Assembly: GCA_021790195.1 (NCBI GenBank)
Contig: JAJYIF010000029.1
Coordinates: 1 to 38,813, forward strand
Source: Nitrospirota bacterium
GTDB taxonomy: Bacteria; Nitrospirota; Thermodesulfovibrionia; Thermodesulfovibrionales; UBA9159
Direction of reading: 5' to 3'
DNA length: 38,813 nt
Position numbers and translations under genes: made by a program. The notes beneath the pieces were generated by a model. That model was not told where the DNA came from and ran no database searches. It saw nothing but the letters and a program-made list of their open reading frames with translations. Below, in pieces: positions 22,201 to 26,809 of this stretch. Numbering within the stretch: position 1 is the stretch's first letter; each line of letters opens with the position of its first letter.

Positions 22201-23150
22201 ACCGCTTCATTCCAGGCCGAATCCGGGTCCCACAAATGATGCGCCTCGTCATTCAGGACCATTAAGCGAGGATGCCCTGTTATGCGTTCGCGCAATTCCG
22301 TGCCGGTGTCCAATGCCTTTGCCTTGGACACTGCCGGCCCCATCCAGTCATAGGTATCGCCGCCGTCTCTCTTACGCTTTTCCTTATCAAAAAGTCTATG
22401 AATGTTCGTCAGATAAAGAACGCCGCCTGTCGTGGCCCCGCCTGCTTCATCCTGGAGAACGACGGACAAATTCCAGTCGCCGCGCCACTCTACGGGTATA
22501 AGTGGGTCTTCGTCGAATATATCCGGCCCGCCGCCCTCTGGTTTGAAATCCTCTTTAAGGCGTTCAAAGACCGTAAGGTTAGGCGCAACAACAACGAAGT
22601 GTCGTGCCATCGGGGAATCGCTTTCGCGCAGCGAATGAAAATAACTCCAGACAATAGCCAGGCTCATCACCTTTGTTTTGCCCGAGCCGGTCGCCATTTT
22701 GAAAGCAAAGCGGCTCCACGCATCTTCTTCTTCGGTGATACCGAGAGCCATCTCTTCCGAATACTGTCCGCCGAACTCAGCAAATACCTGTGACAGTCTG
22801 TCCAGACGGCGGACTTCCTTGAGATAGATCAGGGTCTCAATTGCTTCACGCTGGCAGAAATAATAGCGAAACTCCTTAGAGTCGCCGTTACTGCCGACTG
22901 TATGCTCCCGATCAAACCAGTAGCTCAACAATTGACGTGTTGTATCGCTTGCGCCGAAATGGAAGTTCTCCCGCCACTCTTTCACAGCGGCCCTGAGGTT
23001 TTGAGCGATCATGAGCGGCGAGGGTCTGCGGTTGTTTCTGACTTCGGCGCCCTCTCCGCCCTCTCGTCTGACGCGATGCTTATTCGGCTCCTCCCATGCG
23101 GCAAAGAGAGGTTCTAAAGCTTCGCTTTTGATGGTAAGCTCTTCAGACAT
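19293..23150 (-). CDS. Type III-like restriction enzyme Res subunit with C-terminal HEPN-like extension
   Basis: A 1285-aa SF2 helicase-nuclease. Walker A ATGSGKT is at 153-159, DEAH at 301-304, SAT at 339-341 and motif VI (EQTLGRGLRR) near 537-546. A PD-(D/E)xK nuclease core follows: PDFLV 840-844 and ETK 854-856. Type III Res proteins usually end near 900-1000 aa; here about 300 more residues follow. These include RNTCVAH at 1102-1108, an R-x5-H motif typical of HEPN ribonuclease folds, and a last domain (about 1150-1285) I do not recognise. ATG 23150 was chosen for an AGGA 8 bases upstream and because the preceding 22 codons look non-coding. With mod it should cleave unmodified DNA using ATP. 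Confidence 0.9.
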   Translation of the reverse strand: MSEELTIKSEALEPLFAAWEEPNKHRVRREGGEGAEVRNNRRPSPLMIAQNLRAAVKEWRENFHFGASDTTRQLLSYWFDREHTVGSNGDSKEFRYYFCQREAIETLIYLKEVRRLDRLSQVFAEFGGQYSEEMALGITEEEDAWSRFAFKMATGSGKTKVMSLAIVWSYFHSLRESDSPMARHFVVVAPNLTVFERLKEDFKPEGGGPDIFDEDPLIPVEWRGDWNLSVVLQDEAGGATTGGVLYLTNIHRLFDKEKRKRDGGDTYDWMGPAVSKAKALDTGTELRERITGHPRLMVLNDEAHHLWDPDSAWNEAVQFLDETCRKRGGDGLAAQLDFSATPKDNKGNYFKHIICDTPLGEAVDAGIIKTPIIGRAGKLVEQATDNAAFKYEAHLLLGYKRWLKSKEEWEKSGKKPLLFVMCKDTTAADQIASRLNGDEVFKELNERTLNLHIRLKGKIKTIGSGTAKQQVFVEDEKGISDEDLKELRKLSRELDSGSSPYYCIVSVLMLREGWDVRNVTTIVPLRPYSSKAEILPEQTLGRGLRRMTPPGQANEVVAVVEHDAFARLYRDELAQEGLPLEIVDVDRVPTTTVSIFPDPQKDRSKLDILIPRLTAAAQILATLGPISESEVREAFRPYSPLPIGEMGPSEVPYEGRHLITGEVVEQMKVILALLQDGVGALSFFVQELEYICKVKGTHQVLAPLLQVFFEQILFGPGNSIFDPKLVARLSDSDVREHVRAVFVPLIRKKTIKQQARTVEAVPIPVSGWRPFQVTVSERRPALRSDRTLFNLVPCNRSLEQALVEFFNKSGDLIAFAKNAGPQALRIDYLADGQRPALYLPDFLVRTGSGYYLVETKGQIDRDVPAKARAAAAWCKSASSKTSKWEYVFIAEEVFQRFQGSTFSELTRVCAPSLQELLNMQIPREELPLFAGAGTIDTTAEQTMVSEIIPMDEISRLPERYRKAVEEAVSLYLFFERKQGVNYAPVFSALLGVMDEAAKGLIIQKLSSYLPQAVPRQREWFAPYLDKVDHRMRRHYEELGRNLQKTLVYKTGVSPLGLLRNCLDYALNDKTALTGVFSSVKEEFQLPGSRALLSSVQAVNDFRNTCVAHQVKPLCDISDTKKALSEWVDTLVALWNEQADAAYSLTVKTELVRFRDREDQASNFIAEIKAILPKIDIPKSQLTDEGLRRAIAKEVESRLQAFADYRFGANCVRVSCYEIRAGSLDLTVIIDTLQPYAAAAAVYKFIKDYDKLRANTISIVNDITRNGGKLKRAVDALLRNHKDTLI

Positions 23151-23215: not shown

Positions 23216-23256
23216 TTATTTCCCCCTCTTTGGAAAAGAGGGGAAGGGGAGATTTT
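23216..23256. repeat. Hairpin repeat, left copy flanking the DUF559 gene
   Basis: Contains CCCCTCTTTGGAAAAGAGGGG followed (plus strand) by AAGGGGAGATTTT. Its reverse-complement relative is at 23615-23655. The left copy ends 5 bases beyond the DUF559 stop codon. Confidence 0.8.
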
Positions 23257-23261
23257 ATTAA

Positions 23262-23609
23262 TCATAGACAACTCCAAATCTTCTCCACAACCGCTTCCAT
23301 ATTTGCGAAGATGTCACGGTCGGAAAACCTCAATACTTGTAGACCAAGTCCAACAAGCTCACTGTCTCTTAAGCTATCTTTCTTTTGACCGAGTTCAGTA
23401 TAATGCTGCCCTCCGTCAAGTTCTATGACGAGGCTTGCCTTCGGGCAATAAAAATCAGCGATGAAGCGTCCAATAACCTTTTGCCGGTAGAATTGATAGC
23501 CCTTCATTTGTTTGCGTCTCAGTCTTGACCAGAGCTTATTCTCGGCGTCTGTCATGTCTCTTCTAAGCTGCTGCGATAGAGGCTTCAATCTATTGTCGTA
23601 AGGAAGCAT
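23262..23609 (-). CDS. DUF559 endonuclease-domain protein (Vsr-like PD-(D/E)xK fold)
   Basis: A 115-aa protein of the DUF559 family. The typical front LSQQLRRDMTDAENKLWSRL (a helix before the catalytic core) is followed by the core IADFYCPKASLVIELDGGQH. Asp52, Glu63, Asp65 and His69 are the likely metal and catalytic residues of a very-short-patch-repair-like nuclease. Length is normal for the family. It sits inside the restriction-modification operon, between the Phd-like gene and res. It is enclosed by two inverted copies of a 41-bp hairpin repeat only about 5 bases from its start and stop. Its biochemical role is unknown; the arrangement suggests it travels as a cassette rather than being an R-M subunit. 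Confidence 0.88.
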   Translation of the reverse strand: MLPYDNRLKPLSQQLRRDMTDAENKLWSRLRRKQMKGYQFYRQKVIGRFIADFYCPKASLVIELDGGQHYTELGQKKDSLRDSELVGLGLQVLRFSDRDIFANMEAVVEKIWSCL

Positions 23610-23614
23610 TACCG

Positions 23615-23655
23615 AAAAATCTCCCCTAACCCCTCTTTGTCAAAGAGGGGAATAA
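23615..23655. repeat. Hairpin repeat, right copy flanking the DUF559 gene
   Basis: The plus strand reads AAAATCTCCCCTAA then CCCCTCTTTGTCAAAGAGGGG and AATAAC. It is the inverted, nearly identical counterpart of 23216-23256, beginning 5 bases upstream of the DUF559 start codon. Confidence 0.8.
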
Positions 23656-23768
23656 CACCTTCTGCAAATCGTGTGACGCTCAATCAAGAAGTCCGACGCC
23701 ACTCCTCAAGCGCTTCATCAAATCCCTCACAGTCCTCAGGATCTCCTTTACCATAGAGTTCAGAGACA

Positions 23769-26277: not shown

Positions 26278-26535
26278 TCAGCTTGCCTTCCTGAATTTAC
26301 GCAATTCCTTACGCACAGCTTCACCGACAATTTCCTGGATCGGCCGTTTATCCTGTCTGATATAATTACGCAGCGCCCGGTTCATGGAAGTCTGATAGCC
26401 CTCTCCCTCGCGCTCAGCCTCGTCTCTGAACCACTCGAGGATGTCCGTATCGATCCAAATGGTAATCCGGCTCTTGCCCCTGTGAGGAATCACCGGTCCG
26501 CGTTTTCCTTTACTGAAATCATATTCTCTCTCCAT
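26278..26535 (-). CDS. brnA: BrnA-family antitoxin
   Basis: An 85-aa ribbon-helix-helix antitoxin of the BrnA (DUF4415) family. EYDFSKGKRGPVIP at the start is the toxin-contacting part. KSRITIWIDTDILEWFRDEA is the RHH DNA-binding strand-helix. A basic C-terminal tail follows. ATG 26535 lies 1 base after the brnT stop with AAAGG just upstream. An alternative ATG at 26553 adds six residues and overlaps brnT. BrnA neutralises BrnT and, in Brucella, represses the brnTA promoter; the tandem repeats at 26816-26837 are the probable site here. Confidence 0.92.
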   Translation of the reverse strand: MEREYDFSKGKRGPVIPHRGKSRITIWIDTDILEWFRDEAEREGEGYQTSMNRALRNYIRQDKRPIQEIVGEAVRKELRKFRKAS

Positions 26536-26536
26536 A

Positions 26537-26809
26537 TCACCTTTCCTTCTCATAGACCCGCCTTTCTCTGATAGTCGCTTTTCTGGCCGAAATCAACCTT
26601 ATTTCTTCCTTGCCTTCATATGCATAGACAACAACCAATATCCTGCCCAGGATATCCACACCGAGCGTAATAAAACGCTGTTCAGTATGTTGTTTGTCTT
26701 CGATAGTTATGCCCATAGGGTCATCGAGAACCGTCGAGGCATGAGGAAACTCCACCTTATGTTTTCGAATATTGGCTTCGGCCTTATTGATGTCCCAAAC
26801 GACCCTCAC
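26537..26809 (-). CDS. brnT: BrnT-family ribonuclease toxin
   Basis: A 90-aa RelE-fold toxin (DUF497/BrnT). The signature is complete: VWDINKAEANIRKHKVEFPH, DDPMGITIEDKQHTEQRF, then LVVVYAYEG and IRLISARKAT-x-RERRVYE. The start is GTG 26809, fixed by the WDINKA motif. It has no Shine-Dalgarno, and the -10 box of a consensus promoter ends only 6 bases upstream, so the mRNA is probably leaderless. brnT precedes brnA, the usual order. As an addiction module next to a restriction system it may stabilise the island. Confidence 0.94.
   Translation of the reverse strand: MRVVWDINKAEANIRKHKVEFPHASTVLDDPMGITIEDKQHTEQRFITLGVDILGRILVVVYAYEGKEEIRLISARKATIRERRVYEKER

Follow-up and report, generated by a model that had tools for sequence, protein, structure and literature searches.

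Among the repeats of bacterial genomes, REPs and REPINs rank with the commonest. In REPtrons a RAYT gene, coding for a Y1 HUH transposase, is flanked by GTAG-tagged REPs, and the REPINs are the non-autonomous dimers (PMC3733652). In addition, CGTC-tagged REPs, including the dRS3 repeat of Neisseria, have been described without a dedicated transposase (PMC3733652), and these orphan families, found in Alphaproteobacteria, Neisseria and others, occur where relatives of the DUF559 nuclease also do. The DUF559 nuclease described here is in turn like I-Bth0305I, a Vsr-like homing endonuclease of the EDxHD family, both in fold and in sequence profile, but differs from it in being encoded by a free-standing gene with REP ends, and neither an intron or intein nor a fixed target gene was seen.

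The locus described here lies in a window of 38,813 nucleotides, the whole stretch of DNA that was analysed, from a Nitrospirota bacterium (GCA_021790195.1, contig JAJYIF010000029.1), and its parts are collected in the table. Both of its ends carry the hairpin CCCCTCTTTnnnAAAGAGGGG, bordered on its inner side by a tail (GGGGAGATTTT / AAAATCTCCCC) and on its outer side by TTATT, and when the two ends are aligned in inverted orientation the match extends over 41–42 columns, interrupted by two small gaps and three mismatches; given that the hairpin by itself is palindromic, it is the tail that gives the pair its inverted relation. The first-pass annotation, made from the letters of the window, had described near-identical inverted repeats just outside the start and the stop of the gene, and so they are, the tails beginning 5 bases past the stop and 6 bases ahead of the ATG. 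The window has 2 exact hairpins, against a mean of 0.02 expected in the dinucleotide-shuffled window even with up to 3 mismatches allowed. The cassette is co-oriented with the surrounding type III R-M operon, having res on one side and a short gene without any family match on the other. The listed Res reading frame starts at 23216, within the cassette end, and its homology to Res begins only at about residue 29, and therefore the true Res start is probably an ATG near 23150. A BrnT/BrnA toxin-antitoxin pair (window 26278-26809) also lies upstream of mod and points the same way.

Table. Parts of the DUF559 cassette in the window (positions of the whole window)
Feature	Position	Strand	Description
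Whole cassette, H'-T'-gene-T-H, tails inward	23216..23655	-	440 bp, between mod and res of a type III R-M operon
DUF559 (PF04480) nuclease gene	23262..23609	-	115 aa, Pfam E=1.4e-34
Hairpin H', 5' (upstream) end of the gene, CCCCTCTTTGTCAAAGAGGGG	23630..23650	.	perfect 9-bp stem
Inward tail T', TTAGGGGAGATTTT on the coding strand	23616..23629	-	from sequence and alignment of the ends
Hairpin H, 3' end of the gene, CCCCTCTTTGGAAAAGAGGGG	23223..23243	.	perfect 9-bp stem
Inward tail T, AAAATCTCCCC on the coding strand	23246..23256	-	from sequence and alignment of the ends
Outer TTATT	23216..23220	.	inverted counterpart AATAA at 23651-23655; the pair delimits the 440-bp extent (end alignment)

The analogy with REP-associated transposases drawn in that annotation is a good one. 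Inverted palindromes flank the gene and gene-less copies occur. Cassette and REPtron both have a single small gene between inverted palindromes, and they also share palindromes specific for each family, abundant gene-less dimers with the tags outward and the presence of several families per genome. They differ in the enzyme, a PD-(D/E)XK/Vsr-like nuclease in the cassette and an HUH tyrosine transposase in the REPtron, and in the tag, a C-rich tail (AAATCTCCCC) in the former and GTAG in the latter. At the ends of the window cassette the foot of the hairpin carries the tail AAAATCTCCCC and no GTAG tag, and the gene between them is DUF559 and not a Y1 HUH tyrosine transposase. Membership in the CGTC superfamily was also considered and discarded, the CGTC tag being missing from the window ends and present only at L067, L068 and L080 among the scanned loci. 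An apparently ordinary RAYT/REPtron exists elsewhere in the same genome (L115, C22:184-546), where a Y1_Tnp gene has CCCCGTGGcttgCCACGGGG on both sides, an unrelated palindrome.

The window DUF559 protein is predicted to adopt a PD-(D/E)XK/Vsr-like fold (AF2 model, pLDDT 88), and the model matches 3hrl and 3r3p in Foldseek, the latter being I-Bth0305I, with probability 1.00 and TM 0.63-0.76, in addition to a profile match of E=8.5e-6. The former, 3hrl, is the solved structure of NGO0050, and the Neisseria gene that is apparently its source has a repeat copy on either side. Residues E23, D52, E63, D65, H69 and D78 fall in invariant or near-invariant columns among 54 relatives, and dN/dS values of 0.12-0.37 across five DUF559 pairs indicate purifying selection. 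The fold match, the conserved residues of catalytic type and these dN/dS values together indicate that the enzyme is kept working. A defence reading of DUF559 was set aside, the PADLOC matches being weak and of the shared-nuclease type (DpdF, mREase).

Sequence comparison shows that in many phyla stand-alone DUF559 genes are set in this same palindrome-nuclease architecture, and the recurrent order is hairpin, gene-facing tail, gene, tail, hairpin. In a first survey of 78 loci with DUF559 relatives, from GTDB genomes of many phyla, an inverted repeat, taken as a match across the two 150-bp flanks with a score of at least 12, was found around 33 of the 75 genes scored but, when the other 505 ORFs at these loci were scored, around only 6 (Fisher p=6e-27). 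The flanking palindromes that the first-pass annotation had proposed looking for around other DUF559 genes thus turned out to be general: a pyrimidine-armed hairpin, a definition that lets in some ordinary terminators too, lies no more than 260 bp away from 122 of 141 stand-alone DUF559 genes compared with 12 of 172 control windows 1.3 kb distant, and on both sides of 58 of 141 compared with 0 of 172, about 64 of the 141 loci having it on a single side. After dereplication at 50% identity the figures were 28/32 vs 6/80 for any hairpin and 14/32 vs 0/80 for both sides. Phage records with a DUF559 relative numbered only 4. In Sinorhizobium a two-palindrome repeat, complete or nearly so, lies on each side of the DUF559 gene, and one of the two, used as a query, was found at more than 20 places of the same replicon; this repeat (L323, L328) looks like the rhizobial intergenic mosaic element RIME1 in having two palindromes about 50 bp apart and tens of copies per replicon. 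No link between RIME1 and DUF559 was found in the open-access literature searched.

We also found that, at the level of sequence, the class of the hairpin tracks the clade of the nuclease rather than the host. The hairpins were divided by stem sequence into five classes, defined by hand once the stems had been seen, and on the DUF559 tree the class labels require 42 changes, compared with a mean of 86.5 for shuffled labels and with none of 200 shuffles as low. For pairs of nucleases from different phyla, the same hairpin class was shared by 178 of 181 at 55% identity or above, by 465 of 594 at 45-55%, by 190 of 1781 at 35-45% and by 21 of 269 (8%) below 35%, exact counts that depend on the choice of classes, since these were hand-made post hoc and the pairs are non-independent; with Acinetobacter and Aggregatibacter left out, 67 of 70 pairs at 55% or above still shared their class. 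Paralogues of one and the same genome have differing hairpin classes in G017, G284, G278, G113, G232, G101 and G026, and in the case of G026 the nucleases with one of the classes form a group at 57-83% identity, those with the other are a pair at 94%, and between group and pair the identity is about 41%.

Palindromes without a gene also exist. Among 296 genomes of the phylum the exact palindrome turned up in 65, with up to 171 copies, and the reversed pattern in none; it is present in 14 of the 16 genomes that have a close DUF559 (E<1e-38) vs 51 of the 280 others (p=1.5e-8), with hairpin-rich genomes devoid of a close DUF559 of the matching clade also existing (for example G002, G045 and G158). 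Counting solitary copies, as had been suggested, gave a result favourable to the first-pass annotation: the window's own genome has one additional exact copy, a single half and not a REPIN-like dimer, and in the related hairpin-rich genomes the copies examined are mostly gene-less REPIN-like dimers. In G113 nearly all the inspected copies are dimers of tail, hairpin, 6 to 9 bp, hairpin and tail, with the tails outward, and 24 dimers spaced by less than 30 bp were found in 440 kb made up of regions picked to include hairpin sites. A dimer of this order would be the product expected from joining the ends of a cassette.

Related genomes have whole cassettes at different chromosomal sites, with the homology stopping at the hairpins. 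G113 and its congener G298 have in common a 448-bp block, 87% identical, whose limits are the outer hairpin edges; the two cassettes are at unrelated sites, that of G298 abutting a tRNA-Ser gene, and the cassette is absent from the G113-orthologous sites of G215, G298 and G299 as well as from the G298-orthologous sites of G113 and G215. The insertion junction is not base-exact in this pair because the cassette-free orthologous sites differ in other ways. In G026 near-identical cassette copies are located at different sites, and in G120 a tandem array holds an intact cassette together with a 175-bp derivative that shares its ends and has lost internal sequence. At a contig end of G120 (L260, 16300-17200) there are tandem short units, each terminating in a CCCCTCTTT hairpin.

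Relatives are found between sufB and sufC in Sphingomonas, within an hpa operon in Deinococcus, beside tRNA-Ser and beside nirK, and with such a diversity of settings the R-M operon does not belong to the system: it is an incidental landing site, and the cassette need not serve the R-M system. The comparison of related mod-res operons, also proposed in the first-pass annotation, was likewise favourable to it: at 62% Res identity these operons have no DUF559 gene and have other genes at the junction. The accessory genes there differ between relatives (L150 in G232, L151 in G176), and therefore the mod-res junction looks like a variable slot. An exact empty/occupied junction with a target duplication was not found for the bare hairpin-ended cassette, nor did a precise empty site emerge from the Res orthologues, from the sequence on either side of the cassettes in G113 and G298, or from the Azospirillum, Sinorhizobium and E. 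coli ycjD comparisons; at the suf and nirK sites, where the comparison was not resolved to the base, there was no precise junction, and in the two E. coli genomes without ycjD that were examined an efflux operon follows sapF instead.

Since the architecture recurs across phyla and the cassettes have changed sites, they look like a hitherto unrecognised class of mobile element of very small size, and we consider it, on balance, probable that the 440-bp unit is such an element, with a Vsr/homing-type DUF559 nuclease between inverted REP-like ends. The candidate mover is likely the cassette's own nuclease. It would recognise its own palindrome plus tail, the form recognised being probably a REP duplex or an extruded hairpin, and would nick or cut there, after which host replication and recombination may copy or move the unit, or its dimers without a gene, perhaps by way of a circular or tandem intermediate of gene plus dimer; in the window genome, the unit would have landed between mod and res. 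We put forward more tentatively, as a possibility that goes well beyond this locus, that DUF559 proteins are the long-missing dedicated enzymes of the large REP/REPIN-like families without RAYT, that is, a second and HUH-independent class of mobiliser: a PD-(D/E)XK nuclease of the homing type would work on the palindromic ends and would carry itself, along with its gene-less dimers, from phylum to phylum. The match of DUF559, clade by clade, to REP-like repeats offers a concrete enzyme to test, and it gives DUF559 proteins, including YcjD of E. coli and NGO0050 with its solved structure, a likely role, besides showing that a nuclease gene standing alone next to R-M genes does not have to be a defence gene. 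In the open-access literature searched, we found no paper linking DUF559 to REPs or other repeats.

The other explanation that deserves most attention, although we regard it as unlikely, is that cassettes and dimers are mobilised in trans by a Y1/RAYT, an IS200/IS605 or an ISL3-like DDE enzyme, with DUF559 as cargo. Terminal inverted repeats (TIRs) with 8-bp target duplications are the signature of a conventional transposase, and the cassettes of L230, L232 and L010 are enclosed by just such inverted repeats (written GGTTCTTC...GTGTGGGT or GGTTCTTC...GTGTGGGTA), with the perfect 8-bp target duplications AAGTTTAG, GTATTTAA and ATAAAATG, whereas none of 304 control windows has a TIR with target duplication; we presume these elements to be ISL3-like, and at least some copies may therefore have travelled as cargo. 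TIR-like sequence is present on one or both sides of 13 of 148 loci vs 2 of 308; apart from L230, L232 and L010, it was noticed at L037, L089, L231, L235, L258 and L291. Nevertheless, in the window cassette an ISL3-like TIR and an 8-bp duplication were looked for and not found, and a search for PF01610 found nothing in G026 and G284, the genomes with the target-duplicated copies. In the case of the Y1 enzymes, none of the 30 Y1_Tnp loci of 16 hairpin-rich genomes is flanked by these hairpins on both sides, and only L222 has one nearby, on which count RAYT/IS200 was rejected as the mover; moreover, G101 has 17 palindromes and no Y1_Tnp match, and the Y1_Tnp gene of the window's own genome (L115) has the different palindrome CCCCGTGG...CCACGGGG, all of which makes Y1 transposases poor candidates. 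Finally, the tight coupling of nuclease to hairpin class is not predicted for a passenger gene.

The first-pass annotation had raised homing as a possibility. Homing in the strict sense, in which the gene is copied into a cognate empty site that was there beforehand, would make the REP dimers the resident targets, with DUF559 cutting near the dimer tail and break repair then placing a copy of the gene next to dimers or between them, and this we hold to be improbable. In its favour is the predicted fold, which is that of a homing endonuclease, and to this it can be added that dimers are abundant as potential targets and that the gene lies between complete, or nearly complete, dimers at several loci, direct in L024, L033 and L078 and inverted in L323. 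What speaks against it is that cassettes of the window type hold only inner dimer halves, that the G113 and G298 copies are at unrelated sites with no resident dimer visible at either, and that, where loci were inspected by eye, the gene adjoins the tail, with no case seen of it splitting the dimer spacer. We disfavour, as highly improbable, the idea of an ordinary accessory or defence nuclease of the host, with the hairpins as terminators or REPs that collect at short intergenic genes, for in spite of the location of the window cassette in an R-M operon and of the conserved position of E. coli ycjD between sapF and fabI (query coverage of at least 80% in 3333 of 5426 genomes), control ORFs and windows of the same loci are without the hairpins, hairpin class goes with the nuclease across phyla, and the contexts of DUF559 are mostly non-defence.

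Two minor observations concern other repeats. Just beyond the window cassette, CACACGATTTGCAGAAG (coding strand, window 23656-23720) is like the inner part of the GGTTCTTC-type TIR in the opposite orientation, a likeness that may be due to chance. In G120, contig C30 (for example at L247, L248, L250 and L256) carries an abundant repeat family of a different kind, CTACTTTTCTTTTTtgcaAAAAAGAAAAGTAG, which is frequently accompanied by a second hairpin, GCTTCTTTCTCT...AGAGAAAGAAG.
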